Shown piece after piece: positions 32,308 to 60,977 of a DNA stretch of 64,000 bases; the first letter of the stretch is position 1; each line of letters begins with the position of its first letter. This DNA comes from Alphaproteobacteria bacterium. GTDB lineage: Bacteria > Pseudomonadota > Alphaproteobacteria > CADEGL01. The notes below the pieces were generated by a model. It was given only the letters and a program-made list of their open reading frames with translations, was not told the origin of the DNA and did not search any database. A program made the position numbers and the translations under genes. Where the stretch lies: the NCBI GenBank assembly GCA_026400755.1, contig JAPLOM010000063.1, forward strand, positions 77,349 to 141,348, written 5' to 3'.

Positions 32308-32349
32308 GGCGTTCTATCAAATGCGTCACCCCGGCAGGGAGGGACACCC

Positions 32350-34389: not shown

Positions 34390-34392
34390 CCG

Positions 34393-43824: not shown

Positions 43825-45141
43825 TCAGAAGGGCAGGGAGTCGCGGAAATCGTAGTAGTTCATGACTGTGGGCAGGAACCACGGGTCGCCGTTATAGAAC
43901 CGCGCGCCGGGGAAGTCGCGCCCGTCGAAGGCCGTCTTGGCCTCTGCCGCCTTGCCCAGCAGGCGCAACGCTAGCTTTCGTCCCAGGTAGCTGCCCATGG
44001 GAATGCCCGTGCCGCAGCAGCCCACGGCATAGTGTACGCCGTCCTGCACGCCGATATGAGGCAGGTAGTCGAAGGTGAAGGCAAAATACCCGTCCCAGCA
44101 GCGCGCCAGGCGAACGGAGGCGAACTGGGGGAAGCGGATCGCGAAGTGGTTGTGAAGGTGGGCGGCGGTGGTGCGCAGATCCTTGTCGCGCCGGCCCGCC
44201 CGGCCGCCGATGATCAAGCGCTTGCCGTCCGGCGTGGGCTGGATGTGGAAGACCACCTTGTGCGAGGTGATGATAGGCCGCCCGCCGGGCACGATGGATT
44301 GGATCAGCTCCGTCGGCACGGGCTCGGTCGCGCAGGCATAGCTGTTCACCGGGATCAGGCGGCGGCGCAGGTATTCGAACACCGGGCCGTCGCGCCCCGT
44401 ATAGGCGTTGGTGGCGACGATCACTTGGCTCGCCCGCAACCGGCCCCGGCTGGTCACGACCTCGAAATCGAGGTCGGCGCGCTGGATGCCAGTCACGCGG
44501 GTCTGACCGGCAATTGTCACCCCGGCTTCAACCGCGCGGTCGATCAGACCCCGGTGATAAAGGGCGCCGTGCAGATAGCCGGGTCCGTGCACGACCTGGC
44601 CGCCGAAATAGACGTCGCTGCCCACATGGGCGCGCTGTTCGCTGCGGGGGATCATGTCGGCCTTGTAGCCCACGCGCTTGAACAGGACGTCCACCTCGCG
44701 CGCCAGCGCCTCGTAGGCCCTCGGGCTGTGGGCGGCGTAGTAGCGGCCGGTGCGCTTGAACAGGCAGTCGATACGCTCGGAGCGGATCGTCTCGTCCAGA
44801 TGCTCGATGGCGAGAGCCGCCTCGCGGTAATAGGCCGTCGCGGCATCGATGCCGTAGCGGTGGACCAGCCCGTCGAAGCTCCACTTTAGCGTGCGGCTGA
44901 CGTTGCCGGCGTTGCGCGTGGAGGCGCCTTCGCCAGGCGTGTTGGCCTCCAAGATCAGGACGCTGCGGCCCGCGCGGGCCAGCGGCAGGGCGGCGGACAG
45001 GCCCGTATAGCCCGAGCCCACGATCGCGACATCCACGCGCGCGGGCAACGACGCAGGCTCGGCGCGGCGCAAGGGCGCGTCGATCCACCAGTAGGGTTCT
45101 TCCTTGAAATCGGTGGAGAAGATGTCGGGCTGGGTGACCAT
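43825..45141 (-). CDS. DAO-type FAD-dependent oxidoreductase (gamma-glutamylputrescine oxidase-like)
   Basis: A 438-residue flavoprotein that oxidises an amine or imino acid. Start is ATG 45141 (MVTQPDIFSTDFKEEPYWW); the longer upstream frame is noncoding and overlaps the dioxygenase gene. The FAD motif DVAIVGSGYTGLSAALPLAR lies near residue 30 and ANTPGEGASTRNAGNVSRT near 57, as in PuuB and related oxidases. GRPIITSHKVVFHIQPTPDG and GYFAFTFDYLPHIG occur in the C-terminal half. The neighbours (dioxygenases, racemases, M20 and M24 enzymes) suggest a pathway for a modified amino acid. Confidence 0.9.
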   Translation of the reverse strand: MVTQPDIFSTDFKEEPYWWIDAPLRRAEPASLPARVDVAIVGSGYTGLSAALPLARAGRSVLILEANTPGEGASTRNAGNVSRTLKWSFDGLVHRYGIDAATAYYREAALAIEHLDETIRSERIDCLFKRTGRYYAAHSPRAYEALAREVDVLFKRVGYKADMIPRSEQRAHVGSDVYFGGQVVHGPGYLHGALYHRGLIDRAVEAGVTIAGQTRVTGIQRADLDFEVVTSRGRLRASQVIVATNAYTGRDGPVFEYLRRRLIPVNSYACATEPVPTELIQSIVPGGRPIITSHKVVFHIQPTPDGKRLIIGGRAGRRDKDLRTTAAHLHNHFAIRFPQFASVRLARCWDGYFAFTFDYLPHIGVQDGVHYAVGCCGTGIPMGSYLGRKLALRLLGKAAEAKTAFDGRDFPGARFYNGDPWFLPTVMNYYDFRDSLPF

Positions 45142-45230: not shown

Positions 45231-46076
45231 TTAAGCTTGGGCGTCTGGCCGTGGCCAGACTTGGGGGAAGATGGCTGGATCGGTCAGCCGCTCGCCGTTT
45301 TGGAAAACGCGACCCTCGATACGCGGCTCTACCTCGACCTGACGCGCGCCATAGACGCAATCATCGCCGAGCCAGGTTGACTGCAGCGCCCGGCGGCGGA
45401 TCTTCAGCGTATTGCCGGCCGCGCCGTGCAGCATCATGGGATGGAAGGCGATGCAGTCCCCGGGCTCCATGTCCCAGGCGGCCACGTCGTATTTGTCGCG
45501 ATTGGCCTCGACGTCGGGCGCGGGTTCGAACTCTGGCCCCAGACCCTGGGGCACCTTGTTGCCCTTGATCAGGATGGGAATGAAGCTCTTGCCCCATTTG
45601 TGCGAGCCACGGACGAAGGACAAACAGGTTTCCTTCGTGACCGGATCGAGCGGAATCCAGAGCACCACGATCTGGTTCCCGTTGACGTTGTAATAGACCT
45701 GGTCCTGGTGCCAATTCGTGGGCTTCTTCGTGCCGGCGTCTTTCACAAACAGCCCGTCGAAGAAATAGTTCACCTGCTTGGAACGTATCAGCCTGGCCGC
45801 GATGGCGCCGCCCGGGCCTTCGACCGCGAAGCGCTTCAGCTCCGGAACGTGCCGCCACATGTAATAGTCGGTGAAGAAGAAGCCGGGATCGTCCGGATCG
45901 GATTGCGTGCGGCCGTAAGGACCGGGGTTCTTCAGGTCGCTCTCGATCCCCTCGGCGATCAGATCACGCCACTTCTGGCCGAACATACCGCGTAGACAGA
46001 TGGCGCCGTCCCTCTCCAGATCCTGGATGTCGGACTCGCGAACTTTGGCTACAAGCTGATCCGTCTCCGCAGTCAT
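45231..46076 (-). CDS. Phytanoyl-CoA dioxygenase (PhyH)-family protein, copy 1
   Basis: A 281-residue 2-oxoglutarate/Fe(II) dioxygenase-like protein. The iron facial triad is visible as His and Asp in NWHQDQVYYNVN (near residue 120) and a distal His in MMLHGAAGNTL (near 218), with the 2-oxoglutarate-binding Arg likely in IRRRALQSTWLGDD. IPLDPVTKETCLSFVRGSHK is a family hallmark. Members hydroxylate small molecules such as ectoine, fatty acyl-CoA or antibiotic intermediates. It lies 32 nt after a second copy. Confidence 0.9.
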   Translation of the reverse strand: MTAETDQLVAKVRESDIQDLERDGAICLRGMFGQKWRDLIAEGIESDLKNPGPYGRTQSDPDDPGFFFTDYYMWRHVPELKRFAVEGPGGAIAARLIRSKQVNYFFDGLFVKDAGTKKPTNWHQDQVYYNVNGNQIVVLWIPLDPVTKETCLSFVRGSHKWGKSFIPILIKGNKVPQGLGPEFEPAPDVEANRDKYDVAAWDMEPGDCIAFHPMMLHGAAGNTLKIRRRALQSTWLGDDCVYGARQVEVEPRIEGRVFQNGERLTDPAIFPQVWPRPDAQA

Positions 46077-46108: not shown

Positions 46109-46975
46109 CTAGCCGGTCGCGCGCGGCCAAACTTGGGGAAAATGTGGTCCCAGAAAGCGTTGACCGGGTTCCAGCCCGGCATGGCGCAAGTCCGGATCGG
46201 TGCCGCCCGGCTTGTCGGGCTGGTAGACGGCGTCGTCGCCCGTGTACCGCGCGGCCAGGACCCGCAGGCGCTTGCCTGCGGGCAGGTTGCCCGAGCCGCC
46301 ATGCAGCACCATGCCGTTGAAGGCCAGGCAGTCGCCCGGCGCCATCGCCCAGGCCAGGATTTTGTACTTGCCGGGGTCGGCGTCGATATCGGGAATGCGC
46401 GCCCGCTTGGTCTCGCGTGCGTCGCGGTCACCGGGCGTCGATTCGAAAGCGTGGGTGCCCTGCCCATCGGCGAAGAAGCTGTCGCGGTAATAGACTATGT
46501 CGCCTGCGTGGGTACCGCGCACGAACTCCAACGCGCTCTCGCGTCCCACGGGGTCCAGCGGCACCCACAGGCTACAGACGTGCTGGCCCTCGACGCTCCA
46601 ATAAGGCTTGTCTTGATGCCAGGGCGTCCGCGCCCGCGTGCCGGCGGTGCGATAGAACATGCTGTCGTAAAAGACGCGCGCGGTCTCGGAGCCCATCAAC
46701 CGCGCGGCGATTTGCCCGGTCGGCGATTCGGTCAGGAAGCGCTCGTATTCCGGAATGCGGCGCCAGCTCACCACGTCGTTGAAAAAGACGTGACCTGACT
46801 CGTCCTTGGCATAGGTGTGGGCATAGGGGCCGGGCTCGGCCAGGTTGCGCTCGGCTCCCGCGGCGCCCAGCGCAATCCAGTCGAGGTCAAACACGCCGCG
46901 CAGGCAGACGACCCCGTCGCGGCGATAGGCCGCGACGTCCGCATCGGTCAGGGGCTTCAACGGGTTGCGGTTCAT
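46109..46975 (-). CDS. Phytanoyl-CoA dioxygenase (PhyH)-family protein, copy 2
   Basis: A 288-residue paralogue of the next gene. The triad His and Asp are in TPWHQDKPYWSVEG, the distal His in MVLHGGSGNL, and the matching VPLDPVGRESALEFVRGTHA is present. ATG 46975 lies 1 nt from the M20 stop, implying coupling. Both copies have complete iron ligands, so both may be active, on different substrates or successive positions. Confidence 0.9.
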   Translation of the reverse strand: MNRNPLKPLTDADVAAYRRDGVVCLRGVFDLDWIALGAAGAERNLAEPGPYAHTYAKDESGHVFFNDVVSWRRIPEYERFLTESPTGQIAARLMGSETARVFYDSMFYRTAGTRARTPWHQDKPYWSVEGQHVCSLWVPLDPVGRESALEFVRGTHAGDIVYYRDSFFADGQGTHAFESTPGDRDARETKRARIPDIDADPGKYKILAWAMAPGDCLAFNGMVLHGGSGNLPAGKRLRVLAARYTGDDAVYQPDKPGGTDPDLRHAGLEPGQRFLGPHFPQVWPRATG

Positions 46976-46976
46976 C

Positions 46977-48164
46977 TCAGCGTTCGCCGTCCAGGAAACG
47001 GCGTGCGGCGGCCAGCATGACGGACGCCCCCACGGGGATTGCACGCTCGTCCACGGCGAATTCCGGATGGTGCAGGGGATGCACCATGCCGGCTTCCTCG
47101 TTGCGGATGCCCAGGCGGAACATGGTGCCCGGCACGACGCGCGCGTAATAGGCAAAATCCTCGCTGCCCATCGAGGGCCGGCGCATCTCGGTCACCCGCT
47201 CGGCACCCAGGATGTCCGAGGCGGCCCGGCGCACCAGGTCGGTCAAGGGCGCGTCGTTCACCAGAACAGGTTCGCCCTCCAGCGTCTCGAAGCTGGCCTC
47301 GGCGCCGTTGGCGCGCGCGACATTCTGGGCGATCGATTCGATCAGGCGGGCGACCTCGCTGCGCAGGCCCTCGTCCAGCACGCGGAAGGTGCCTTCGATC
47401 ACGGCAGTCTCGGCGATGATGTTTTTGGCCGTGCCGGCCTGCATGCGGCCAATCGTGACCACGACCGGCTCCAGGGGATCGGTGCGGCGGCTGCGCACCT
47501 TCTGCAGCTCGCCTACGATGGCGCAAGCAGCGGCCAGCGCGTCGATACCCAGATGTGGCCGCGCGGCGTGGCTCGACCGGCCTTTTACTCGGATGGTGAA
47601 TTCCTGCCCGCCCGCCATCAGGGCGCCTGCGCGCACGCCGATCAGGCCCACTGGAATCTCGGGATCGACGTGGAGGGAGACGATGCCCTCCACCCCTTTC
47701 ATATGTCCGGCCTTGATGATCTCGCGCGCCCCCAAGGGCTCGGCCTCCTCGGCCGGTTGGAACACGCAGCGCACGGTTCCTGAGAATTTGTCCCGTTCGG
47801 CCTGGAGCGCCAGCGCCACGCCCAGCAGAACAGAGGTATGGACGTCGTGGCCGCAGGCGTGCATCACGCCGGCCTTCTTGGAATGGAATGGAAGGTCCGG
47901 CCTCCGCTCCTCGATGGGCAGGGCGTCCATGTCGGCGCGCAAGGCCAGGGTGCGGCCGTTGCCCTTGCCGCGGATGGTGGCCACGAGGCCGGTGTCGAAC
48001 ACCGGCTCAATCTCGGAAATGCCCGCGCTTTCCAGCATGCGCCGGACAAGCGCCGAGGTTTCGCGCTCTTCGTGGGACAGTTCCGGGTTCTCGTGGATGG
48101 CCCGGCGCGCCTTGATCATGGTCTCGGCCAAAGCGGGCGTGATGTTGCGGGGCAGATCGGACAT
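46977..48164 (-). CDS. M20-family amidohydrolase (hippurate hydrolase-like)
   Basis: A 395-residue metal-dependent amidohydrolase. Metal and active-site motifs: MHACGHDVHTSVLLG near residue 106, QPAEEAEPLGA near 140, SLHVDPEIPVG near 164, and HPLHHPEF near 361. These match the aminoacylase/hippurate hydrolase branch of M20, which cleaves N-acyl groups from amino acids. It lies 9 nt after a racemase-fold gene. Deacylation of an N-acylated amino acid after racemisation is a reasonable inference. Confidence 0.93.
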   Translation of the reverse strand: MSDLPRNITPALAETMIKARRAIHENPELSHEERETSALVRRMLESAGISEIEPVFDTGLVATIRGKGNGRTLALRADMDALPIEERRPDLPFHSKKAGVMHACGHDVHTSVLLGVALALQAERDKFSGTVRCVFQPAEEAEPLGAREIIKAGHMKGVEGIVSLHVDPEIPVGLIGVRAGALMAGGQEFTIRVKGRSSHAARPHLGIDALAAACAIVGELQKVRSRRTDPLEPVVVTIGRMQAGTAKNIIAETAVIEGTFRVLDEGLRSEVARLIESIAQNVARANGAEASFETLEGEPVLVNDAPLTDLVRRAASDILGAERVTEMRRPSMGSEDFAYYARVVPGTMFRLGIRNEEAGMVHPLHHPEFAVDERAIPVGASVMLAAARRFLDGER

Positions 48165-48173: not shown

Positions 48174-48887
48174 CTACTCAGCGGCGGTGGAGCGCGCGAT
48201 CCCGGCGGGTCCGGCCACGGACTCAGCCAGGATGCCGGCTAGGCTGACATAGTCGAACACGGGAAGACCGGTCGCCACGCGCACGTGGTCGGCCACGATC
48301 GGGAAAACGGCACATTCGAAGACGATGGCGCGAATGCCGGCATGGGCATCGAAGGCGCGCCGCGCGGTCGCCATCACGTCGCGCGCCAGCATGGCGTGGG
48401 TGATGCCGGGTTGGGGCTTGCGCATCTCGTCCCAGGATTCCGTGCCCTCGACGCCCGCGACGATCACGGGGCTGGTCTTGAGCGACCAGCCGGCGCCATT
48501 GGCAAGACCTTCGTTGAAGCGCGTGGCGTCGAAGGTCAGAAGGGCGATCTTGGATCCTGGCGGCAAGAGGCGCTCGACAAAGGGCACCAGCAACAAACTC
48601 GAGGTCGCCACCGGGACTGAGACGGCGGCGCTGATCTCGGCTTGGAAATGGCTCGTGTAGCCGCACAAGGTAGCGATGGCGCGACAACCGTCCTGCTCCA
48701 TCTCTCGTGCGTTTTCGATATAGGCGCCGAGGATGTCACGGTCGCCGCCGGTGACTACGTCTACGCGCGCACCAGGCACGTGCCGATGCAGGACCGGATA
48801 CGGGAAGGTCGTAGGATTGTGGTAGGAACCCGGCAGATGAATCGGCCCCACGTCCAGCATCTGGATGCCGAGCGTGGGGCGCGTCAT
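48174..48887 (-). CDS. Asp/Glu/hydantoin racemase-fold protein, copy 1
   Basis: A 237-residue racemase-superfamily protein. Both catalytic-type Cys are present, in ATLCGYTSHFQAEI (near residue 74) and IVFECAVFPIVAD (near 194). Bilobal pseudo-symmetry around these loops is typical. The N-terminal GIQMLDVGPIHLPGSYHNP is shared with copy 2. Racemisation or isomerisation of a small amino-acid derivative is likely; the hydantoin racemase branch is possible but unproven. Confidence 0.87.
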   Translation of the reverse strand: MTRPTLGIQMLDVGPIHLPGSYHNPTTFPYPVLHRHVPGARVDVVTGGDRDILGAYIENAREMEQDGCRAIATLCGYTSHFQAEISAAVSVPVATSSLLLVPFVERLLPPGSKIALLTFDATRFNEGLANGAGWSLKTSPVIVAGVEGTESWDEMRKPQPGITHAMLARDVMATARRAFDAHAGIRAIVFECAVFPIVADHVRVATGLPVFDYVSLAGILAESVAGPAGIARSTAAE

Positions 48888-48894: not shown

Positions 48895-49614
48895 CTACTC
48901 GGCGGCGGCCAACGAGGCGCTGGCCTGGGCCGTGACCGAGGCCATTAGGAAGCGCTGCAGCGTGGAGAAATCGACCGTTGGCAGACCGATTTCGCGGCGC
49001 ACCGTCGCGGCGACGATCGGGAAGGCCGAGCATTCCAGCACGATCGCGGCGACGTCCGGGTTCGCGGCCACGAGCGTGCGCGTCGCGGCCAGTACGTCGC
49101 GCTCCAACATGCCCACGTTGAACTTCGGATCGGGCTTGGCCATTTCGGTCCAGGATTCGCTGCCCTCGATGCCGGCGATCACGGCGGGCGTATCTTTCAT
49201 CGACCAGCCGGCGCCGTTGAAATGCAACTCGACGAGCTGCTTGGCGTCGTAGGTCACGATGGCCAGCTTCTTTCCCGGCGGAATGATGCGGGCCATGAAA
49301 GGCACCAAGGACAGGCTCGATAGCGCCACTGGAATCTTCACCGCCGCTGCCACGTCCTTTTGGAAGCGCGCGGTGAAGCCGCAGGCGCTCGAGATGGCGG
49401 CCACGCCTTCGCGCTCCAGTTGGCGGGCCGCTTCGATATAGGCCGTCACCACGCCAGGGTCGGTGCCAACCACGTTCTTGGTCCAGGCCCCTGGTACTTG
49501 CAGATAGCGCACCGGAAAGTCGAAAGTCACCGGATTGCTGATCGCGCCAGGCAGGCGGATCGGCGTGTTCTGCAATTGCAGCATCCCCAGGGTGGGGCGG
49601 CTCTTGGCGTCCAT
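48895..49614 (-). CDS. Asp/Glu/hydantoin racemase-fold protein, copy 2
   Basis: A 239-residue paralogue 7 nt upstream of copy 1. The two Cys loops are SSACGFTARFQKDV and IVLECSAFPIVAA. Both proteins end in a short Ala-rich tail (ASLAAAE and RSTAAE), supporting tandem duplication. It could form a heterodimer with copy 1 or recognise a different substrate. It follows the M24 enzyme gene by 26 nt. Confidence 0.87.
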   Translation of the reverse strand: MDAKSRPTLGMLQLQNTPIRLPGAISNPVTFDFPVRYLQVPGAWTKNVVGTDPGVVTAYIEAARQLEREGVAAISSACGFTARFQKDVAAAVKIPVALSSLSLVPFMARIIPPGKKLAIVTYDAKQLVELHFNGAGWSMKDTPAVIAGIEGSESWTEMAKPDPKFNVGMLERDVLAATRTLVAANPDVAAIVLECSAFPIVAATVRREIGLPTVDFSTLQRFLMASVTAQASASLAAAE

Positions 49615-49640: not shown

Positions 49641-50816
49641 CTAGGCGATGTGCATCTTGCGCGAGGTCTTGGTCAGGACCTCGACGCCGGTCTTGGTCAC
49701 GGCCCAGGTTTCGCTGAAGCCAATCGCGCCCACGCCAGGGATGCCGATCATGGGCACGCTGTGGAAGGTCATGCCCGCCTGCAAGGGGCGCGGGTCATTG
49801 GGCTTCAGGTCCATGATATGGCCTTCACCCCAGCCCGGCGGAAAGCCGATGCCGATGGAATAGCCGGTGCGGTGGATCCAGTACTTGCCCAGGCCCGCCT
49901 TCTCGACGATGCGGCGGCCGGCGCGGTCGATATCGCCCGAGGTCACGCCAGGTTTGACCGCGGCCAGGAGCGCTTCGAGCGCCCCCTGCACGGCCTCGGC
50001 CGCCTTCTTCACTTCGGCCGAAGGCTTGCCGACGGAGACGGTGCGCATGATCGCGCCACCATAGCGGTACCAAGAGCCGCCGATCTCCAGAAAGACCAGG
50101 TCTTTGGCTTTGATCTTGTTGCGCTCGAAGGTGGCGTGGCCGAGGGCCGAGCGCGTGCCAGTGACGACATAAGGCTGGGAGCCGACATATTCGCTGCCCG
50201 CTGAGACCATGGCGTTGTAGATGGTGCCGGCCACCTCGTTCTCCGTGCGGCCAGCCTTGATGACCTTGTAACCCGCTTCCAGGCCCATCACTGCCGTGCC
50301 GGCGGCCTCGCGGATATATTCGATCTCCTTCGGCGACTTGATCAGGCGGCATGCTTCCACCACGCCGCCGGCGGGAACGAAGGTGGCGTTCTTCAGGCGC
50401 GCCCGCAGCGCGTCCAAGATGCCTGCGGGCAGGAAGAAGCCTTGGTCGTCGAAGCCAATGCGTGCCCGCGCGCCGCCCAACCCTTCGATGCAACTCGCCG
50501 TGGCCTCGAAATAGCTTTCGGTGTCGGCGACGGCGTAACCCTTCTTGATCCAAGACAGGCTCTGCACGTTGGTGAATTCCAGGCGGCGCACGACGAATTG
50601 CGGCTCGCCGTTCGCCGGCACCACAAGCGCTTGGTAGACGTAATAGCCAGTCGTCCGGTAGCCGGTCAGGTAGTAGATATTCTCCGGGCCCGTCACCAGC
50701 ATCATGTCGATGTCTTTCGCCCGCATCTTGGTGCGGACGTTCTTTAGGCGGGTCTTGAACTCTCCGATGCTGAACGGATACCCGAAGTTCTTGCTTGCGG
50801 ACGGCTTGTCGGCCAT
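49641..50816 (-). CDS. M24-family creatinase/ectoine-hydrolase-like protein without the metal ligands
   Basis: A 391-residue pita-bread-fold protein. The creatinase N-terminal domain (about 20-150) and the M24 domain (about 165-385) are recognisable. The five residues that bind two metals in aminopeptidases are not conserved: VFLEIGGSWYRYGGAIMRTV lacks the two Asp, and HRTGYSIGIGFPPGWGEGH lacks the usual GHGIG His. Such metal-free members include creatinase and ectoine hydrolase (DoeA), so C-N hydrolysis of a guanidino, ureido or cyclic amidine compound is more likely than peptidase action. It is 78 nt after the DMT array. Confidence 0.88.
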   Translation of the reverse strand: MADKPSASKNFGYPFSIGEFKTRLKNVRTKMRAKDIDMMLVTGPENIYYLTGYRTTGYYVYQALVVPANGEPQFVVRRLEFTNVQSLSWIKKGYAVADTESYFEATASCIEGLGGARARIGFDDQGFFLPAGILDALRARLKNATFVPAGGVVEACRLIKSPKEIEYIREAAGTAVMGLEAGYKVIKAGRTENEVAGTIYNAMVSAGSEYVGSQPYVVTGTRSALGHATFERNKIKAKDLVFLEIGGSWYRYGGAIMRTVSVGKPSAEVKKAAEAVQGALEALLAAVKPGVTSGDIDRAGRRIVEKAGLGKYWIHRTGYSIGIGFPPGWGEGHIMDLKPNDPRPLQAGMTFHSVPMIGIPGVGAIGFSETWAVTKTGVEVLTKTSRKMHIA

Positions 50817-50894: not shown

Positions 50895-51821
50895 TCAGGC
50901 TTCGGGTGGCCTCACGGGCTCGGACACCAGCCTGTGCGCGGCGCGGGCCCGGACGGCCTCGCGGTGGCCGATATAGAGGACCGCGGCGATGATGATGGCG
51001 GCGCCTATGGGGGTCCAGATGTCGGGCACTTCGCTGAATAGGAAATAGCTGGCCACGGCGGCCAGAGGCAGTTGCAGGTACTCCAGCGGCACGACCACGG
51101 AGGTTTCCGCGACCGTGAGCGCGCGCGAGACGGCGATGTGCCCGAGCGTTCCCGTCGCGGCCAAGGTGAAGACCAGGATCAGCGCGGTCCACGTCGGCGT
51201 CTGCCAGACGAAGAGGGTCGGAATGAGCGTGGCCGGCGTCAGCATGATGAACATGTAGCCGACGATCACGGTCGGCGATTCCGTGCGCGACATGACGCGC
51301 GACAGGATGATGGCGCTGGCCCACGTGGCGGCGTTGATCAGCACATAGAGTGCGGCTGTATCGAACACGGCGATGCCGGGCCGGATGATGACCATGGCGC
51401 CGACGAAGCCGAAGAAGACGGCCGTCCAGCGCCGGACGCCGACTTTCTCGCGCAGGATCAGCGCAGCCAGCATGGTGGCGAACAGGGGCGCCGTGAAACC
51501 CAGCGACACGGCCTCGGTGATCGGCAACAGCTTGACCGCGTAGATCCACATCAGCATGGACACGAACATCGCCGCGGCGCGCATGAAATAGAGGCTTGGC
51601 CGGCCCATTTTCATGCCCTTGAAACCGACCTTGGCGATAAAGGGAATGAATAGAATCGCCGCGAAGAAACAGCGCAGGAACAGGAGTTCGATGGGTGGCA
51701 GTTCCAGCGAGATGGGACGGATCAGGATTGTGTTGAGCGCCCAGCAGACGGCCGCGCCAGCCATCCACAGGATGCCCTCGATGGGCGCCGGCAGGCTGGG
51801 CATCCAGCGCCGTGTGTTCAT
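50895..51821 (-). CDS. DMT/EamA transporter, array member 9 (3'-most)
   Basis: A 308-residue membrane protein with ten predicted hydrophobic segments and two EamA repeats. Features shared with neighbours include RPISLELPPIELLFLRCFFAA, EKVGVRRWTAVFFGFVGAMV, VSRALTVAETSVVVPLEYLQ and YIGHREAVRARA. It carries the longest soluble C-terminal tail of the six-gene run (HRLVSEPVRPPEA). Its ATG overlaps the previous gene's stop by 4 nt (51818-51821). Confidence 0.93.
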   Translation of the reverse strand: MNTRRWMPSLPAPIEGILWMAGAAVCWALNTILIRPISLELPPIELLFLRCFFAAILFIPFIAKVGFKGMKMGRPSLYFMRAAAMFVSMLMWIYAVKLLPITEAVSLGFTAPLFATMLAALILREKVGVRRWTAVFFGFVGAMVIIRPGIAVFDTAALYVLINAATWASAIILSRVMSRTESPTVIVGYMFIMLTPATLIPTLFVWQTPTWTALILVFTLAATGTLGHIAVSRALTVAETSVVVPLEYLQLPLAAVASYFLFSEVPDIWTPIGAAIIIAAVLYIGHREAVRARAAHRLVSEPVRPPEA

Positions 51822-52747
51822 GTGTCTCTCGATCCGGCCATCTCGGCCCTGCGTGCCGCGCGGGCGATCTGGCCCTCTCGGTGCGCGATATACAGCGCCG
51901 ATCCGATGATGACGGCGGCGCCGGCCAGCGTCCACTTGTCCGGAACCTCGTTGAAGATCAGGAAAGCGATCAGGCCACCGAAGACCAGGCGCGTGTAATC
52001 GAATGGCACCAGGACCGACGCCTCGGCGGCGTGGAAGGCACGAGTCATGGAGATATGGCCGATGGTTGATGCCAGGCTCAGCGCGAACAGGATCATGAGC
52101 GTATTCCAGCTCGGCGTGTGCCAGACGAACAGCGCCAGGATGAAGGAGGCCGGCGTCACCCACATGAACATGTGAGCCAGGATGGTGGTCGGCGAATCGG
52201 TCCGCGTCAGGATGCGGATCACGATAGCCGCGATGCTCCAGATGGTGGCGTCGCCCAGGACCAGAATCAGCCAGAAGTTGAACTCTTGGAATCCAGGTCG
52301 AAGGATCACGATTGCGCCTAGAAAGCCGAAAGCCACGGCCGTCCAGCGCCGGGCCCGGACCTTTTCATGCAGGACCAGTGCGGCCAGGATGGTGATGAAG
52401 ATGGGCGCGGTGAAGTTCAGTGAGATGGCGTCGACCAGCGTGACGTGCGGGATGGCCGAGAACCAGCACAGCATGGCGCCCAGGAAACAAGCCGCGCGCA
52501 GCAGATGCAGCTTCAGCTTCGTGGTGCGAAGCGCGCCCAGTCCCTGCCGGAAGATAAGGGGTGATAGAAGGATCAGCCCGAACAAGTTGCGGAAAAAGAC
52601 GATCTCGAACGGGTGCATCTCCTGCGCCGCGGGCCGGATCAAGGCTGTCATGATCGAGAATGAGCATGATGCCAGCGTCATCCAGAGAGCGCCGCGCACG
52701 GGGCCGGGCAGGGCGGCACCGGCCTGGGCGATCGAAGCCAGGTTCAT
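51818..52747 (-). CDS. DMT/EamA transporter, array member 8
   Basis: A 309-residue EamA-family transporter. Repeat 1 opens with GPVRGALWMTLASCSFSIMT and RPAAQEMHPFEIVFFRNLFG. The inter-repeat loop reads LHEKVRARRWTAVAFGFLGA and the second repeat contains MTRAFHAAEASVLVPFDYTR. A basic C-terminus follows (IARAARRAEMAGSRDT). It is joined by ATGA overlaps to the genes on both sides (51818-51821 and 52744-52747). Confidence 0.93.
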   Translation of the reverse strand: MNLASIAQAGAALPGPVRGALWMTLASCSFSIMTALIRPAAQEMHPFEIVFFRNLFGLILLSPLIFRQGLGALRTTKLKLHLLRAACFLGAMLCWFSAIPHVTLVDAISLNFTAPIFITILAALVLHEKVRARRWTAVAFGFLGAIVILRPGFQEFNFWLILVLGDATIWSIAAIVIRILTRTDSPTTILAHMFMWVTPASFILALFVWHTPSWNTLMILFALSLASTIGHISMTRAFHAAEASVLVPFDYTRLVFGGLIAFLIFNEVPDKWTLAGAAVIIGSALYIAHREGQIARAARRAEMAGSRDT

Positions 52748-53637
52748 GTCGCGGCACCCTTCGCGCGCGCTTGGGCGGCTTCGCGTTGGGCGATGTAGAA
52801 GGTGGACCCTGTAATCAGCGCAGCGCCGATGAAGGTCTCGAGATCGGGCACCTCGTGGAAGATGAAAAAGCCGATCAAGGCGGCGAACAGAAGCTGGGTG
52901 TAGTCGAACGGCATGATCGCCGATGCCTCGGCGCAGGTGAACGAGCGCGCCAAGGCGAAGTGACCGAAGCTCGACATCACCGCGACGCCAGCCACCCAGG
53001 CCAGGGATTCCAGCGGCGGCGGTTGCCAGACGATGAGGGCCGGGATCGCCGACAGCGGCGTCACCCAAAGGAACATGTGGGCGACGATGGTCGCGGCGCT
53101 GTCGGTGCGGGCGACGCTGCGCATGACGATGGCGCTGAAACTCCAGAAACAGGCGTTGGCCAGGATCAGTAGCTGCGGCCAGTCCACGGTCGAGACGCCC
53201 GGCCGCAGCACGATCAAGGCCCCCACGAACCCTACGGCCACCGCCGTCCAGCGCCGGATGCGGACGCGCTCGCCCAAGACCACGGCCGCCAGGATGGTGA
53301 TGAGGATCGGCGAGATGAAATAGAGGGTGATGGCGTCGACCAGAGGGATGTGCGGCAAGGCCCAGAACCAGGTGACCATGCCGCCGAAGAACGACAACGC
53401 GCGCAGGAGGTGAAGCCGCAAATGCGCGGTTCGCAGAACCCCGAAGCCGGCGTGGAAGATGAACGGCGCCATCATGGCTAGGCCCATGATGTTGCGGAAG
53501 AACACCACCTGGAACGGGTGCAGCCCTTCCGAGGCCGGGCGGATCATGGCGGCCATGACGGCGAAGGCGGCCGCCGACATGGTCATCCAGAAGGCCCCGC
53601 GTACCGGCGCCGAAAAGGTCGTTGGCAGTCCTTTCAC
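52744..53637 (-). CDS. DMT/EamA transporter, array member 7
   Basis: A 297-residue transporter starting at GTG 53637 (VKGLPTTFSAPVRGAFWMTM), where GTGA is shared with the upstream stop. Family features are RPASEGLHPFQVVFFRNIMG, LGERVRIRRWTAVAVGFVGA and LARSFTCAEASAIMPFDYTQ. A Cys replaces the usual residue in the latter helix (TCAEA). The GTG start may lower translation relative to its neighbours. Confidence 0.93.
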   Translation of the reverse strand: MKGLPTTFSAPVRGAFWMTMSAAAFAVMAAMIRPASEGLHPFQVVFFRNIMGLAMMAPFIFHAGFGVLRTAHLRLHLLRALSFFGGMVTWFWALPHIPLVDAITLYFISPILITILAAVVLGERVRIRRWTAVAVGFVGALIVLRPGVSTVDWPQLLILANACFWSFSAIVMRSVARTDSAATIVAHMFLWVTPLSAIPALIVWQPPPLESLAWVAGVAVMSSFGHFALARSFTCAEASAIMPFDYTQLLFAALIGFFIFHEVPDLETFIGAALITGSTFYIAQREAAQARAKGAAT

Positions 53638-54545
53638 GCCTGTGCCGCGCCCCCTCCGGCGCGCCCCGCCTCGACCCGTGCTTCGCGGTGTCCGACATAG
53701 AGCGCGGCGGCCACGATGACGGCGGACCCGATCAGCGTCCAGTGGTCCGGCGCCTCGCCAAAGGCGAAAAAGCCGATCACGCCGAGAAGCGGCAGGCGGA
53801 TGAATTCGATCGGCATCACCAGCGACATGGGCGCGAGCGAAACCGCGCGGGTCGCGCAGACATGGCCGGCCCAGCCGGCCAAGCCGAGTAGGAGAATCCA
53901 TGGGATCGACGTCCAGGTGGGATCACGCCAGTTGTCGAGCGCTGCCGGAAGGGACATCGGCGTCAGCAGGACGAACATGTAACTGACGATGGCGTTCGTG
54001 CTGTCCTTGCGGTTCAGCACTTTGATCATGATCACGGCCGCCGCCCAACCCAGCACGTTCAAGACGATGAGAAGCATGTTCGGGTCGACATTGCCAAAAC
54101 CCGGACGAAGGATCAGCAGCGCGCCGGCGAACCCCGTGGCGATGGCCAGCCAGCGGCGCCAGCGCACTTTTTCGCCAAGGAACGTCGCGGCCAAGCCCGT
54201 GGTGATAAAGGGGATCGTGAAGCTCAGCGCCACGGCATCCACCAGCGTGACCCGCGGAATTGCGTAGTACCAGGTCGACATGGAGAGGTAGACGAGCGAT
54301 GCGTAAAGGATATGAAGCGGCAGACGCTTGGATCGCATCGCGCTGATGCCCGACTTGAGAAGCCACGGCATCATCAGGGCCAGTCCGATGACGTTGCGGA
54401 AAAACAGCACTTGCAGCGGATGCATATCGGCCGAAGCTGGGCGGATAGACGCCGTCATGGCCGAGAAGCAGGCAGCGGAGACCACCATCCAGAGGACACC
54501 CCGCACCGGGGCTGGCAGGCCGTCCGATGCGGAGGAGGCGTTCAA
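53634..54545 (-). CDS. DMT/EamA transporter, array member 6
   Basis: A 303-residue transporter. RPASADMHPLQVLFFRNVIG and LGEKVRWRRWLAIATGFAGA are conserved. The second-repeat helix is more divergent (CATRAVSLAPMSLVMPIEFI, with LAPM in place of the AEAS seen in neighbours), suggesting a different substrate pocket. The C-terminus is Gly/Ala-rich (GRAGGGAAQA). It overlaps its neighbours by 4 nt at each end. Confidence 0.93.
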   Translation of the reverse strand: MNASSASDGLPAPVRGVLWMVVSAACFSAMTASIRPASADMHPLQVLFFRNVIGLALMMPWLLKSGISAMRSKRLPLHILYASLVYLSMSTWYYAIPRVTLVDAVALSFTIPFITTGLAATFLGEKVRWRRWLAIATGFAGALLILRPGFGNVDPNMLLIVLNVLGWAAAVIMIKVLNRKDSTNAIVSYMFVLLTPMSLPAALDNWRDPTWTSIPWILLLGLAGWAGHVCATRAVSLAPMSLVMPIEFIRLPLLGVIGFFAFGEAPDHWTLIGSAVIVAAALYVGHREARVEAGRAGGGAAQA

Positions 54546-55468
54546 GGCTTCGTGCCAGGCTGGCGTGGTGGCTCGTCGGCCGCCACGGCCACATCATGGA
54601 CGCGATGGAGGTAGGCCTCGCGGCGGGCGATATAGAAGGCAGAGCCGATGATCACGGCGGCGCCGATCCAGGTCCACATGTCGGGCCGTTCATTGAAGAA
54701 CGCAAAGCCGATGGCGGCCGCGAAGACGAGTTGTACATAGTCGAAGGGTGCTACGACGGACACCTCCGCGCTGGCCCATGCGCGGGCCAGGCAGATATGA
54801 CCCATGGTGCCGATCACAGCCACACCCAGCACGGCACTCAGCGCATACAGCGTCGGCGTCTCCCAGAAGAACAGCGCCGGAACCAGTGTCATCGGCGTCA
54901 TCAGGACGAAATTGTAGACAACGATCGCGATCGGCGAAAAACCGCTTGAAAGGTGGCGGACGATGACACCGTACGAAGCCGCCGTGGCCGCGCAGAGAAA
55001 GACAAGCAGCGCAGCCCAGTGAAATTCCTGGACGCCGGGCTGCAGCACGATCATGGCTCCGGAGAATCCAACGATGATAGCCGTCCATCGGCGAACGCGG
55101 ACGATCTCGCCCAAGAACACGGTCGCCAGGATGGTCGCGAAAAACGGTGTCGTGAAGGAGAGGGCTGTGGCTTCGACCAGTGGGATCAGGGAGACCGCGA
55201 TGAACCAACTGAGGGTGGCCACTGTTTGGCACAACGCGAGAAGCAGAAACGTCTTGCGTTTTGTCGGCGCAAAGAACCCGGTCCGGTGCTTGATCACCCA
55301 TGGCGCCAGAAGCGCAACGGCGAAGACGCAACGGAAGAAGGCGATCTGCACCGGATGTAGTTCCTCGGCCGCAATGCGCACGAAGAAGTTCATCACGGTC
55401 CAGCAGATGGCCGCACCGACCATCCATTGCGCGCCCTTGAGCGGGGAGTGGGTGAGGGGTGCGGTCAC
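54542..55468 (-). CDS. DMT/EamA transporter, array member 5
   Basis: A 308-residue transporter from GTG 55468 (VTAPLTHSPLKGAQWMVGAA), whose GTGA overlaps the preceding stop. RIAAEELHPVQIAFFRCVFA and LGEIVRVRRWTAIIVGFSGA match the array consensus. The second repeat has LARAWASAEVSVVAPFDYVQ. A hydrophilic 25-residue C-terminus (DVAVAADEPPRQPGTKP) is distinctive. Confidence 0.93.
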   Translation of the reverse strand: MTAPLTHSPLKGAQWMVGAAICWTVMNFFVRIAAEELHPVQIAFFRCVFAVALLAPWVIKHRTGFFAPTKRKTFLLLALCQTVATLSWFIAVSLIPLVEATALSFTTPFFATILATVFLGEIVRVRRWTAIIVGFSGAMIVLQPGVQEFHWAALLVFLCAATAASYGVIVRHLSSGFSPIAIVVYNFVLMTPMTLVPALFFWETPTLYALSAVLGVAVIGTMGHICLARAWASAEVSVVAPFDYVQLVFAAAIGFAFFNERPDMWTWIGAAVIIGSAFYIARREAYLHRVHDVAVAADEPPRQPGTKP

Positions 55469-56376
55469 GCCGCTGCCCTCTGGGCTTTTCGCGCCATCGC
55501 TTCCCGCTGTGCGATATAGATGGCGGCGGCGGCGATCAGCACCGAGCCCGCGATGGTCCATTCATCGGGAATCTCGCCGAAGACTAAGTAACCGATGAAG
55601 GCGACGACGAGAAGCTGAGTGAAATCGAATGGCGCGATCTGGGACGCTTCGGCCACCACATAGGCACGAGTCATGAAGAGATGACTGACCGCGCCGACGA
55701 TGCCGAGTGCGCCGAGCCAGGCAAACATTTCCAGGGTGGGCCATTGCCACACCAGGAGCGCGGGCACCAAGAGAACCGGCGTCAAAATCGTGAAGTTATA
55801 GGCGACCATGTCGTTGGGGCTCTGGTCCCTTGTCAACGTGCGGACGGTGATGCGCCCGATCGCCGAAGTGATGGCCGTGCCGAGCACGAGCATGGCGCCC
55901 CATTCGGGCGCTTCCAGCCCCGGGCGCAGGATCAGCATGGCCCCCGCGAAACCCGCGGCCACGGCCAGCCAACGGCGCGCCCGAACGACCTCGCCCAGAA
56001 ACAAGACCGCCAGGATGGTGGCGAAGAAAGGGGCCGTAAAATAGAGCGCCGTCGCCGGAGCCAGAGGCATCATGGTCAGGGCGGAAAACCAGAACAGCAT
56101 GGCGCCAGCATGCAACGCGGCGCGAACGAGATACAGGCCCCGGTGGGTGCGCGGAAAGATACCGGTACGGTTCCGTACCATGTGCGGAACCATGATGAAG
56201 GCGGCGAAAAGAATCCGGAAGAATGCCACCTCGACCGGCGGCAGGTCGGTCGCCAGATAGCGAATCATCGCGCTCATGAGCGCCCAGCAGGTGCTCGCGG
56301 CGATCATCCATAAAGCACCCTCGACGGGCGCAGAGACCGCGACCACGGGCGCCCGCTTTTGGGCCGGCTTGCTCAT
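55465..56376 (-). CDS. DMT/EamA transporter, array member 4 (first of the six-gene run)
   Basis: A 303-residue transporter, ATG 56376 (MSKPAQKRAPVVAVSAPVEG). RYLATDLPPVEVAFFRILFA, LGEVVRARRWLAVAAGFAGA and MTRAYVVAEASQIAPFDFTQ are visible. It lies 128 nt downstream of the family 5 binding protein, so it may have its own ribosome-loading site and a separate promoter; the five genes after it are all translationally coupled. Confidence 0.93.
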   Translation of the reverse strand: MSKPAQKRAPVVAVSAPVEGALWMIAASTCWALMSAMIRYLATDLPPVEVAFFRILFAAFIMVPHMVRNRTGIFPRTHRGLYLVRAALHAGAMLFWFSALTMMPLAPATALYFTAPFFATILAVLFLGEVVRARRWLAVAAGFAGAMLILRPGLEAPEWGAMLVLGTAITSAIGRITVRTLTRDQSPNDMVAYNFTILTPVLLVPALLVWQWPTLEMFAWLGALGIVGAVSHLFMTRAYVVAEASQIAPFDFTQLLVVAFIGYLVFGEIPDEWTIAGSVLIAAAAIYIAQREAMARKAQRAAA

Positions 56377-56504
56377 CCGTCCCCACTCTTAAATGCTTTG
56401 GGGAGGCCCCGCCACCGCAGCCATCGCATGGGACTTGGATGATCGATGCAAAGGCCGCATGGCGGCCGGTAAGAACGGGCAGCCTTGGGAAATGCGTCCG
56501 GCGC

Positions 56505-58061
56505 TCAAACCTGACGGAAGAACGGAAGCTGCCAGTCGTTGCCGTTGGGCAGCAGGGCCGGCCTCAACCAGCTGCGCGAGGCGAAGGTCAATGTGTCGTG
56601 GGTCAGCCAGACGAAAGCAGCCGATGCGTCCATCAACTGCTGCATCTGCACGAAGGCGTCCATGCGCTTGGTTGGGTTGTTGGTCTGGGCCGCGCGCGCG
56701 GACAGCTTGTCGAACTCTGCGTTGCTCCAGCGCTGCCAGTTCCACATGCCAATCTGGGCGGTGGTGAACCACTGGGTATAGAAGCTGGGGTCGAACTTGC
56801 CCTTCAAGGTTTGGAGCGAAAGCTCCAAATCCTTGCCGCCGGGGTCCTTGCCCGCGCTGTAATAGGCGTCGCTGTCCAGCGCTTGGATTGCGCACTCGAT
56901 GCCGATTTCGGCCAGGTTGGCCTGCACGACCTTGGCCGCGGCCTGATGGGTTTCCGTGTTCATGATCGTCAGACGGGTCTTGAAGCCCTCGACCCCGGCT
57001 TCCTTCAACAGGCGTTGGGCCGAAGCGACACTGCGCGCATAGAGCGGCGCGCCGTTCCAGCTTCCCGAGATCTGGGGCGGGATCAGGGTCTTGGCGCGCT
57101 TGACCTGTCCGGCCCAAGCCGCGGTCAGGACGGCGTTCACATCGATGCCCATGCGAATGGCCTGGCGCACCTTGATGTTGTCGAGCGGCGCTTTCTGGAC
57201 GTTCATGCCGATCCAGATCGTGTCCATGCCATCCATGCGGACGGTGGCCGCGTCGGGCAGCTTGGAAATCTCGCTGAAGCTCGACAGAGAGACGCGGGTG
57301 AAATCCGTCTCGCCGCCGCGGAAGGCGGCATCGGCCGCCTTGTCGTCCGTGATGGGGCGCAATTCGATCTCGCCGAACGCGGGTTTCGGGCCGGAATAAT
57401 CGCCGTTGGCGGCCATGACGAAACGTTGGCCCGGCACCCACTCGCGCTGGGCATAGGCGCCCGAGCCGATGGCCTGGGTCGCGATCTTGTCGCCCAGCGC
57501 GTCGTAACCCTTTTTGGAGACGATGCAGCCTGAAGCGTCGCAGATTGTCGTCTTCCACAGGGCTGGCGCGGGCGTCTTGAGCAGGATGCGGCCGCTGAGA
57601 GGGCCAGTGACCTCGACCTTGTCGAGCTGCATCCAGTCGCCTGCGTTGGCGACCTTCTTGGCGGGGTCGATGAAGCGCATGAACGAGAACTGCACATCCT
57701 CGGCCGTCATGGTGCCGTAGCCGCCCGCGAATTTCTGGTTCGGCTTCAGCGAGAATTCGATCGTGTTGGCGTCGACCTGCTTGATGGTCGCGGCCGCGTC
57801 AGACTCCCATTCGAGCGAGCCGGGTTTGAAGCGCGCCAGCGTCTGGTAAGTCGCGCGGCAAATATTGCCCTCGATCGCGCTGATGCGATTGGCGGGGTCG
57901 ATATTGATGATGTCGCGTTCGATGCGCGCCACGAACTGGCCCTTGGCCTGGGCTTGTCCCTTGGTGGCCTGCGCCAGGGCCCAGCCGGGGGTCATGGCGG
58001 TGGCAGTCGCGGCCGCCGAACCCTTGAGGAAATCGCGGCGCGAGAAGCCTGAACCGTTCAT
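56505..58061 (-). CDS. Tat-exported family 5 (dipeptide/oligopeptide type) substrate-binding protein, no cognate ABC genes
   Basis: A 518-residue periplasmic binding protein of the DppA/OppA family. The Tat signal is SGFSRRDFLKGSAAATATAM, with likely cleavage near ALAQA (about residue 30). The family's domain order is normal, including GGYGTMTAEDVQFSFMRFID near 118 and DNIKVRQAIRMGIDVNAVLT near 298. The ATG at 58061 follows the run of three DMT genes by 74 nt. No permease or ATPase of the Dpp type is in the window, so its partner is either elsewhere or, speculatively, one of the adjacent DMT proteins. Confidence 0.93.
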   Translation of the reverse strand: MNGSGFSRRDFLKGSAAATATAMTPGWALAQATKGQAQAKGQFVARIERDIINIDPANRISAIEGNICRATYQTLARFKPGSLEWESDAAATIKQVDANTIEFSLKPNQKFAGGYGTMTAEDVQFSFMRFIDPAKKVANAGDWMQLDKVEVTGPLSGRILLKTPAPALWKTTICDASGCIVSKKGYDALGDKIATQAIGSGAYAQREWVPGQRFVMAANGDYSGPKPAFGEIELRPITDDKAADAAFRGGETDFTRVSLSSFSEISKLPDAATVRMDGMDTIWIGMNVQKAPLDNIKVRQAIRMGIDVNAVLTAAWAGQVKRAKTLIPPQISGSWNGAPLYARSVASAQRLLKEAGVEGFKTRLTIMNTETHQAAAKVVQANLAEIGIECAIQALDSDAYYSAGKDPGGKDLELSLQTLKGKFDPSFYTQWFTTAQIGMWNWQRWSNAEFDKLSARAAQTNNPTKRMDAFVQMQQLMDASAAFVWLTHDTLTFASRSWLRPALLPNGNDWQLPFFRQV

Positions 58062-58135
58062 GGTCGAACCCCTGATTGGGCGCCCGGAAACAGGCGCATC
58101 TTCAGGGCAAAACCTAGCCGAGGGGGGGCGAAACC

Positions 58136-59032
58136 TCAACGACCGTTCTTCGCCGCGGCCCGCCGGATGGCGGCTTCGCGCCGGGCGATATAGATGGTCG
58201 AACCCGCGATCACGATGGCGCCCGCCCAGGTCCAGACGTCCGGCAGCTCGCTGAAGAGGAAATAGCCCAGCGCTGCGGCGGTGATGAGCTGGACATAGTC
58301 GAAGGGCGCCATCTCCGAGGCCTCGGCGACATGCATGGCTTTGGCGACGCAGAAATGGCCGAAGGTGCCCAGCATCGACAGGCAGGCGGTCAGCAGCAGC
58401 GTCCGCGTGTCGGGCCAGGTCCAGACCGGAATGGCGGGAATGAGCAGCAGCGGCGCCAGGAGCAGGAAGTGGTAGGCCACGATCCGCTTGGCGTCGATAT
58501 GGAAGGTCAAATGCCGGGCGCCGACCCGCGACATGGCCGCCGCGGCCGCGGAGATCAGCACCAGGCTCGAGGCCCAATTCAGCGCCTCGGTGCCGGGCCG
58601 CAGGATGATCATGGCACCGGCGAAGCCGAAAGCGATGGCCGTCCAGCGCCGCCGCCGCACCACCTCGCCCAGGAACAGGACCGCGAAGATCGTGGAGAAC
58701 AAAGGTGAGGTGAAGTTCAGCGCGATGGCGGTGGCCAGCGGCATGACCGGGATGATGACGAACCACAACGCCATGGCCGTGCTGTCGCTGAGCGCGCGCA
58801 GCACGACGGCCTTGCGGATACCCTTGGGAGGAATGACCGCGCCTGCGCGGAGCAGGATGGGCAAAAGCACCAATGCGCCGATGCCCGCGCGTAGAAACGA
58901 AACCACCAACGGGTGAACCGTCTCCGACGCGGGACGGATCATCGCGCTCATGCCCGCGAACAGCGAGCCGCCCAGGATCATCCAGATCGCGCCCTCGACC
59001 GTGCCGGAGAAGCGCCGTGCGGGGACGCTCAT
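58136..59032 (-). CDS. DMT/EamA transporter, array member 3
   Basis: A 298-residue transporter (MSVPARRFSGTVEGAIWMIL). It has RPASETVHPLVVSFLRAGIG, LGEVVRRRRWTAIAFGFAGA, and VAKAMHVAEASEMAPFDYVQ, grouping it with the downstream six-gene run rather than the two genes before it. ATGA overlap with member 2 at 59029-59032. It ends 74 nt before the binding-protein gene. Confidence 0.93.
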   Translation of the reverse strand: MSVPARRFSGTVEGAIWMILGGSLFAGMSAMIRPASETVHPLVVSFLRAGIGALVLLPILLRAGAVIPPKGIRKAVVLRALSDSTAMALWFVIIPVMPLATAIALNFTSPLFSTIFAVLFLGEVVRRRRWTAIAFGFAGAMIILRPGTEALNWASSLVLISAAAAAMSRVGARHLTFHIDAKRIVAYHFLLLAPLLLIPAIPVWTWPDTRTLLLTACLSMLGTFGHFCVAKAMHVAEASEMAPFDYVQLITAAALGYFLFSELPDVWTWAGAIVIAGSTIYIARREAAIRRAAAKNGR

Positions 59033-59973
59033 GTCGTGGTCGGACCTTGCTCGTCGGCGCGAACCGGCATCGGCTTGTGCTTCAACCGCGCCTCGCGGTG
59101 GACGATGTAAAGCGTGCTGCCCACGATCACGGCCGCGCCGAGGGCGGCCCAGATGTCCGGCACCTCGGCGAAGAACAGGAAGCCGACCGCGCCGATGATG
59201 ATGATCTGGCAGTAATTCACGGGCGCGATCACCGTCGTCTCCCCTGCTCTCCAGCCCATGATCGCGAAGACCAGGGCGGTGATCGAAAAGAACGACACCA
59301 TGAACATCAGGAAGACCTCGTGCCAGGTCGGCTCCTTCCAGGTGAGATAGGCCGGAAGGAGCCAGACGATGAACGTGACCGTGCCCATGTAGAGGATGAT
59401 CGTCAGCAGCCTCTCGGTTCGCGTCAGTTTCTTCACCACGAGGGTGATGGTGCCGTCGATCAGGCCGATGGCCAGGGGCACCAGCAGCGCGATATCGAGC
59501 GCGCCTGAGCCAGGCCGCAGCATGAGCAGCACGCCGCCGAAGCCCAAGACCGTCGCCGTCGTGCGCCGCCATCCCACGCGCTCACCCAGAAACAGCGCGG
59601 ACAGCACGATGATGAACAACGGCATCGTGAACATCAGCGCCGTCGATTCCGCGAGCGGCAGGAAACTGTAGGACCAATAGAAACACGCCATGCTGGCGCA
59701 GCTCAGCATTCCGCGCATGAGATGCAGCGGCAGACGCTTCGTGCGGTAGGCGTTGGGACGGCCCGGCCAGAAGGCCAACGGCAGAAGAATGCAGATGGAG
59801 AAAAGGTTGCGAAAGAAGATGATCTCGGCCGTCGGCATCGTCTTCGACGCCAGCCGGATGTAGTAGGCCAAGCCGGCCGAGAGCAGGGCGTTGATGACCA
59901 GGTAGACCGCGCCACGGGTGTTGCCTGGCATGCGCTGCCAGGCTTCCAGCGATCGTTTCGCCGCCGCGATCAC
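59029..59973 (-). CDS. DMT/EamA transporter, array member 2
   Basis: A 314-residue transporter from GTG 59973 (VIAAAKRSLEAWQRMPGNTR). It belongs with member 1 to a second subfamily: both have ESTALMFTMPLF, an F/L-LGE-KIGWRR-type loop (here LGERVGWRRTTATVLGFGGV), and RLKHKPMPV-type basic C-termini. The second repeat carries GETTVIAPVNYCQI in place of the AEAS-PFDY signature. GTGA overlap with member 1. Confidence 0.92.
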   Translation of the reverse strand: MIAAAKRSLEAWQRMPGNTRGAVYLVINALLSAGLAYYIRLASKTMPTAEIIFFRNLFSICILLPLAFWPGRPNAYRTKRLPLHLMRGMLSCASMACFYWSYSFLPLAESTALMFTMPLFIIVLSALFLGERVGWRRTTATVLGFGGVLLMLRPGSGALDIALLVPLAIGLIDGTITLVVKKLTRTERLLTIILYMGTVTFIVWLLPAYLTWKEPTWHEVFLMFMVSFFSITALVFAIMGWRAGETTVIAPVNYCQIIIIGAVGFLFFAEVPDIWAALGAAVIVGSTLYIVHREARLKHKPMPVRADEQGPTTT

Positions 59974-60977
59974 GGTACTTCGCCCGGTGGCGCCAAGGTG
60001 CCGGCATGCCGCTTCAAACGTGCCTCGCGATGGGCGATGTAGAGGGTACTGCCCACGATCACCAGCGCACCCGTCGCGGTCCACACGCTGGGCTTCTCGG
60101 CGAAGAGCAATAGGCCGGCAAGGCCGGCCAAGACGATCTGGATGTAGTTCAACGGCGCCACGGCGGTCGCCTCTCCCACGCGCAAGGCGGCGACGTAGGC
60201 AAACTGGCTGACGATCGTCAGCAGCGACATCACGAATAGGAGGCCCAGGAATTCTGTGGTCGGCGTCACCCACATGAAATACGTGGGAACGATGGTCAGC
60301 ACCATGGTGGTCATGGCCATGTAGAGCATGATGGTCAGAAGGCTGTCCGTTCTGGCCAGCTTCCTGATCACGAGGGCGGTCACCGCATCGGCCAGGCCGA
60401 CGATCAGCGGCACGAGAAACGCTGGATCGAAGGCGACGTAACCCGGGCGTAGCATGATGACGACGCCCAGGAAGCCCGCGACCGTGGCGGATGTCCGGCG
60501 CCAGCCTATCTTTTCGCCGAGGAACAAAGTCGTGAGCGCGATCAGGAAAAGCGGCATCGTAAACATCAGCGCGGTCGATTCGGCCATAGGCAGGTGGCTG
60601 AACGCCCAATAAAAGCACGACATGGCCACGAAGCTGATGCCGCCTCGCGCCAAGTGCAGATTGAAGTGTTGGGTCTTCAGCGCGTTGTGCCCGCCGCGGA
60701 AGACGAAGGGCAGGCCTAGGCTGAGCACGAAGATGTTGCGGAAGAAGACCAGTTCGAAGACGGGGATGTCCTGCCCCAGCAGTCGCACCAGGATCATGAT
60801 GACGACGCTGCTCAGCGCGTTGGCCAGCATGAATAGGGCGCCCTGGCTGTTCGGCGGCAGCCGGTGCCAGGATTGTGGGACGAGGCGGGAAAGGGCGGCC
60901 AAGGGCGGGACTTCACTCGTGCGCGTTCGAAAGCCGGCGCGCGGGTCGGGTGGACGAGGGAGTTTCGGCCCCGTCAT
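59970..60977 (-). CDS. DMT/EamA transporter, array member 1 (5'-most)
   Basis: A 335-residue transporter, the first gene of the minus-strand block. A Pro/Arg-rich cytoplasmic leader of about 45 residues (PKLPRPPDPRAGFRTRTSEV) precedes the first membrane segment. Its body, ESTALMFTMPLFLIALTTLF and LGEKIGWRRTSATVAGFLGV, is close to member 2. An internal start would remove the leader and is possible. It is divergent from the dehydrogenase gene with 39 nt between starts, so promoters must overlap or lie inside coding sequence. Confidence 0.92.
   Translation of the reverse strand: MTGPKLPRPPDPRAGFRTRTSEVPPLAALSRLVPQSWHRLPPNSQGALFMLANALSSVVIMILVRLLGQDIPVFELVFFRNIFVLSLGLPFVFRGGHNALKTQHFNLHLARGGISFVAMSCFYWAFSHLPMAESTALMFTMPLFLIALTTLFLGEKIGWRRTSATVAGFLGVVIMLRPGYVAFDPAFLVPLIVGLADAVTALVIRKLARTDSLLTIMLYMAMTTMVLTIVPTYFMWVTPTTEFLGLLFVMSLLTIVSQFAYVAALRVGEATAVAPLNYIQIVLAGLAGLLLFAEKPSVWTATGALVIVGSTLYIAHREARLKRHAGTLAPPGEVP

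Follow-up and report, generated by a model that had tools for sequence, protein, structure and literature searches.

What does a bacterium do with nine transporters of one family encoded end to end, and which pathway do they serve? This question is raised by a 64,000-nt stretch of an alphaproteobacterial genome (assembly GCA_026400755.1, contig JAPLOM010000063.1), called the window below. Its minus strand carries nine EamA-type drug/metabolite transporter (DMT) genes head to tail, in a run of three followed by a run of six, between 60977 (or 60902) and 50895. The reading that we favour, with slightly better than even confidence, is that the genes encode an old, coupled set of permeases of differing specificity that serves a catabolic gene cluster just downstream. 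EamA carriers are abundant and mostly without a known substrate, and nine diverged paralogues beside a defined catabolic cluster would provide a natural panel for mapping the residues that set specificity in the DMT fold.

Layout, family and fold of the array

All nine proteins matched the Pfam family EamA (PF00892), and the starts and ends of their open reading frames agree with the coordinates, strand and two runs given in a preliminary description of the window. The half-domain matches were above the curated cut-off, except for one half of member 2. The genes, numbered from 60977 downwards and each recognised by Pfam EamA, are as follows.

59970-60977, minus strand: EamA member 1; subfamily I in the tree; start uncertain (ATG 60977, TTG 60902 or ATG 60830)
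59029-59973, minus strand: EamA member 2; GTGA overlap with member 1 at 59970; subfamily I in the tree
58136-59032, minus strand: EamA member 3; ATGA overlap with member 2 at 59029; modelled 10-helix DMT fold
55465-56376, minus strand: EamA member 4; opens the run of six
54542-55468, minus strand: EamA member 5; GTGA overlap at 55465; without an orthologue in the array recovered from genus g2
53634-54545, minus strand: EamA member 6; TTGA overlap at 54542
52744-53637, minus strand: EamA member 7; GTGA overlap at 53634
51818-52747, minus strand: EamA member 8; ATGA overlap at 52744
50895-51821, minus strand: EamA member 9; ATGA overlap at 51818; doubled in genus g2

An exact 4-nt overlap was present at every junction within a run (7/7), as the preliminary description had it, although the motif at 54542 is TTGA and not ATGA or GTGA as was claimed for all of them. 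The frame steps are regular from gene to gene, with stop coordinates modulo 3 of 0,1,2 in the first run and 1,2,0,1,2,0 in the second, and the same 4-nt overlaps were found at 7/7 junctions in the sister species (G001). Elsewhere in the window, one of 33 co-directional gene pairs overlaps by 4 nt (Fisher p = 4e-7 versus the array); because the background starts came from a simple codon-usage caller and are approximate, and because pairs inside one array are not independent of each other, this value is indicative, a yardstick and not a strict test. From the array through the downstream genes the intergenic distances are -4 to 128 nt, all in the same direction. The members may be read, tentatively, as co-directional, translationally coupled cistrons of a single transcript; ribosomes that reach the stop of one gene would restart translation at the start codon overlapping it, yielding similar amounts of protein within a run. 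The window holds a tenth EamA gene, isolated and outside the array (17223-18116, plus strand).

AlphaFold modelled member 3 with 10 helices (pLDDT 88, pTM 0.86), and the remaining members, of about 300 aa, align with its sequence over the full length. When the model was used in a fold search, the significant PDB matches were DMT-fold transporters (E about 1e-7), the top ones being the triose-phosphate translocator, YddG (5i20), SLC35B1, Vrg4 and the choline importer LicB (7paf), with TM-scores of 0.70-0.78. A profile of the nine members matched none of the sequences of solved structures, although the fold search did match. Each protein is an ordinary member of the known EamA family and, judging from the model, most likely functions as a full permease without partners.

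Among known systems, the DME family (Transporter Classification 2.A.7.3; YddG, EamA/YdeD, RhtA, AexA) has the same two EamA repeats, 10 helices and DMT fold. Descriptions of DME genes are mostly of genes that stand alone or in small sets, whereas the array genes are nine, co-directional, overlapping and 30-52% identical to each other. In the fold search, LicB and other DMT importers had the top TM-scores (0.75-0.78 by query), but sequence identity is only about 13%, and we know of no arrays of LicB-type importers. The small multidrug resistance (SMR) pairs such as EmrE/SugE, with which the array had initially been compared, likewise belong to the DMT superfamily and occur as small sets of neighbouring genes. 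SMR proteins, however, are 4-helix, half-size subunits of about 110 aa that must dimerise, whereas the array proteins have about 300 aa and 10 helices and do not qualify as SMR proteins. The comparison does not apply, since the model shows an entire DMT fold of 10 helices.

Age, order and selection

The bacterial family to which the window belongs is represented by at least three genera in the genome collection. With member 3 as query, the array was recovered at 89% identity from the sister species and at 61% from a second genus, g2; related runs were recovered from a third genus, g3. In a supported maximum-likelihood tree, members 1-2 formed one clade and members 3-9 another, confirming the two subfamilies proposed earlier. 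The tree also paired g2 genes with window genes in matching order, one to one for members 3, 4, 6, 7 and 8. The g2 array comprises about ten members on two contigs, which probably adjoin, judging from the contig ends; member 5 is absent, member 9 is duplicated, and subfamily I has three genes over two contigs. Member 9 has in addition a dispersed relative on another contig (C12) of the window's own genome.

For the six members compared between genera, orthologues were 54-64% identical, exceeding the 35-52% identity of the compared window paralogues. Neighbouring genes are thus far from identical: paralogues in the window range from 30% to 52% overall, and identity to member 1 from 30% to 48%. 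The ratio of nonsynonymous to synonymous substitution rates (dN/dS) between the window species and its sister species was 0.063-0.145 for 9/9 members, the value of 0.145 belonging to member 1 as computed with the 60902 start. The array is ancient, its order is kept in related genera, and every member is under purifying selection. Tested in this way, it is a conserved tandem array of diverged paralogues and not a recent duplication. The preliminary description, which saw more than a single recent amplification in it, is borne out by conservation of gene order, of the subfamilies and of the overlaps. One 10-helix EamA-type permease lineage would have expanded in tandem, alongside a second subfamily of two members.

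Because the array is old, conserved in order and under purifying selection, we regard it as a genuine transporter set and not an assembly error. Some assemblies do break at array regions (contig ends in G002 and G003), as might be expected if the array were an artefact of assembly or binning. However, independent assemblies of the sister species and of another genus show the same order, so that the array is not peculiar to this assembly, and in the window it sits inside a 212-kb contig and not at its edge. These data refute an artefact, to which we assign a negligible probability. Both conditions under which the preliminary description would have been refuted, an array confined to one assembly and nearly identical neighbours, thus fail.

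The array is less singular than was first proposed. About 54 EamA genes were counted in the 3.36 Mb of the window's genome (from 106 half-domain matches), and the two genomes of the window's genus gave the highest first-look EamA counts among 289 sampled alphaproteobacteria. Other DMT runs of two and three genes occur in the same bacterial family and beyond it; a trio on one contig (C28) is common to the window's genome, the sister species and genus g2, and genus g3 has a trio from other subfamilies. The uncultured alphaproteobacterium A_MB73 (G299) has a run of six head-to-tail EamA genes, likewise with 4-nt overlaps and with one gene frameshifted. Its members differ from those of the window in forming their own clade (100/95 support), so this run arose independently. 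Long, coupled arrays of DMT genes have thus evolved more than once in transporter-rich alphaproteobacteria, extreme though they are. The open-access papers that were searched describe no such arrays; as evidence that none has been described, this is weak.

These counts, the runs of 2-3 genes and the independent six-gene run would suit an explanation by dosage or near-neutral expansion, in which the array is a by-product of ready tandem duplication in DMT-rich genomes and its members are largely redundant. Yet identity among the members is no higher than 30-52%, purifying selection acts on each of them, and six of them are more alike between genera than paralogues are to one another. Redundant copies would not be maintained in this manner, which weakens the explanation, and we consider it unlikely.

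Sixteen positions, all of them in helices, are invariant in most groups of orthologues yet differ between paralogues. Helices 3, 4, 6 and 7 hold 12 of the 16 on about a third of the length, a concentration that was noticed post hoc and is not used as proof. Because orthologue-fixed positions differ between paralogues, different substrate preferences are likely, if weakly indicated. The preliminary description had suggested pocket diversification from variation in helix motifs; the paralogue-specific positions are compatible with this and hint at it without going further. On the favoured reading, the members would prefer different amino-acid-like solutes, with some overlap between their ranges.

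The downstream catabolic cluster and the direction of transport

The best functional clue to the array is a catabolic cluster on the same strand, which the preliminary description overlooked along with a solute-binding-protein gene between the two runs. The cluster consists of the following genes, in the order in which they follow the array, with gaps of 1-122 nt.

49641-50816, minus strand: M24 metallopeptidase-family gene, DoeA-like (Pfam M24 and Creatinase_N), 78 nt downstream of member 9
48895-49614, minus strand: Asp/Glu racemase-superfamily gene 1 (Pfam Asp_Glu_race 27.4 bits, slightly below cut-off)
48174-48887, minus strand: Asp/Glu racemase-superfamily gene 2 (Pfam/NCBIfam profile searches)
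46977-48164, minus strand: M20 amidohydrolase, CpsA/DoeB2-like (Pfam M20; NCBIfam TIGR01891 above cut-off)
46109-46975, minus strand: PhyH-family Fe/2-oxoglutarate dioxygenase a (Pfam PhyH)
45231-45986, minus strand: PhyH-family dioxygenase b (Pfam PhyH on a longer reading of the open reading frame)
43825-45141, minus strand: FAD-dependent amino-acid-type oxidase (Pfam DAO on a longer reading of the open reading frame)

The gene order of the cluster is retained in the sister species. It is also kept in genus g3 (G004:C62), where two EamA genes lie immediately upstream of the M24 gene. Five tandem PhyH genes stand at this g3 locus where the window has two, showing that the dioxygenases expand in tandem too.

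The likeness of the cluster to ectoine catabolism was assessed with NCBIfam models. The M24 gene scored 338 bits against ectoine_DoeA_2 (cut-off 575) and is not classed as DoeA, and racemase-superfamily gene 1 reached 217 of the 231 bits of PRK07475. The M20 protein fell below the equivalog cut-offs of CpsA (390/500 bits) and DoeB2 (297/550 bits) and is classed as neither DoeB nor DoeB2. For the oxidase the nearest model was L-pipecolate oxidase, with a score far below cut-off. To our knowledge, the ectoine transporters described are of the ABC (Ehu) or Tea/Ueh type and not DMTs. The window cluster resembles the ectoine clusters eutABCDE/doeABCD in its DoeA-like M24, racemase-superfamily and DoeB2-like M20 genes; those clusters include EutA, which is described as a racemase (PMC5924519). 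It differs from them in scoring below the DoeA and DoeB2 cut-offs and in containing PhyH and FAD oxidase genes, and neither EutB nor EutC was found among the annotated genes downstream of the array. We infer, on grounds of association and not of proof, that the cluster may encode a pathway for an ectoine-related compound, cyclic or N-substituted and derived from an amino acid, and that the DMT array may provide the transport for this pathway. The set would then serve the M24, racemase-like, M20, PhyH and FAD oxidase enzymes by uptake, or balancing exchange, of ectoine-type N-substituted or cyclic amino-acid derivatives.

Several points weigh against this assignment. The function of the array is assigned by association only: none of the curated substrate-level models was reached by the array members tested, and a scan for consensus promoters and terminators gave no excess over shuffles. 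In genus g2 the M24 orthologue is at the edge of another contig, and the linkage of array and cluster is unreadable there because the contigs end. Outside the bacterial family, M24 relatives are rarely beside EamA genes. The window's genome has 33 M24 genes in 3.36 Mb, a notable expansion that makes general proximity of M24 and EamA genes uninformative; we rejected a general M24-EamA association on both of these grounds.

The direction of transport bears on the same question. The DMT fold is silent on it, as YddG exports and LicB imports. YddG, RhtA and AexA are efflux carriers and provide the model for an alternative in which the array is an export set whose nine carriers rid the cell of amino-acid-like intermediates, surplus or toxic, that arise in the downstream pathway or in general metabolism. 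Many characterised EamA proteins (EamA, YddG, AexA) are exporters (PMC11005379), so that export is about as likely as uptake, which also counts against the assignment above, and YddG was among the best structural matches of the member 3 model. On the other hand, importers such as LicB share the fold, it would be unusual for one pathway to have nine different exporters, and the neighbouring genes are catabolic. We therefore hold an export set to be a real possibility, though short of an even chance.

Further along the minus strand, three genes resembling dimethylglycine/sarcosine dehydrogenases (DAO and GCV_T domains), two of them adjacent, lie within 24572-36786. They suggest methylated-amine catabolism.

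The solute-binding-protein gene between the runs

The space between the two EamA runs (56377-58135) is occupied by one gene on the same strand as the array.

56505-58061, minus strand: family-5 solute-binding protein (SBP) with a twin-arginine translocation (Tat) signal (Pfam SBP_bac_5, E 9e-59, and TAT_signal)

The sister species has an orthologue in the matching position (86% identity), and the next-best relative within the bacterial family is only about 26% identical, restricting the SBP to the window's genus. The equivalent interval of the g2 array contains, in place of the SBP gene, an M24 peptidase gene encoded on the opposite strand. Because the SBP is found only in the one genus and g2 has an M24 gene there, it is most likely a late insertion outside the conserved core, and we rejected it as a core part of the array.

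The strict 4-nt coupling and the insertion of the SBP gene on the same strand could also be taken to mean that neighbouring members assemble into a hetero-oligomeric or combinatorial transporter, with coupling giving equal stoichiometry and the Tat-exported SBP perhaps feeding it. Hetero-oligomers had been raised in the preliminary description but found no support here: the model of member 3 is that of an entire carrier with 10 helices, like YddG and LicB, and the others align with this member over their full length. Moreover, in another genus the array persists without the SBP and with a changed number of members. We know of no DMT that needs an SBP, and consider such a transporter very unlikely. 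Even more doubtful is the proposal that the array works as one unit, with nine co-translated DMTs acting in mixed complexes or in combinatorial uptake and coupled, in the window's genus, to the Tat-exported SBP; if true, this would be the first binding-protein-assisted DMT transport.

A gene for another SBP, of the PotD type, is present on the plus strand at 36983-38086 as two open reading frames that correspond to its N- and C-terminal halves, and is probably a pseudogene or a sequencing error. It is followed by an intact copy at 38478-39581.

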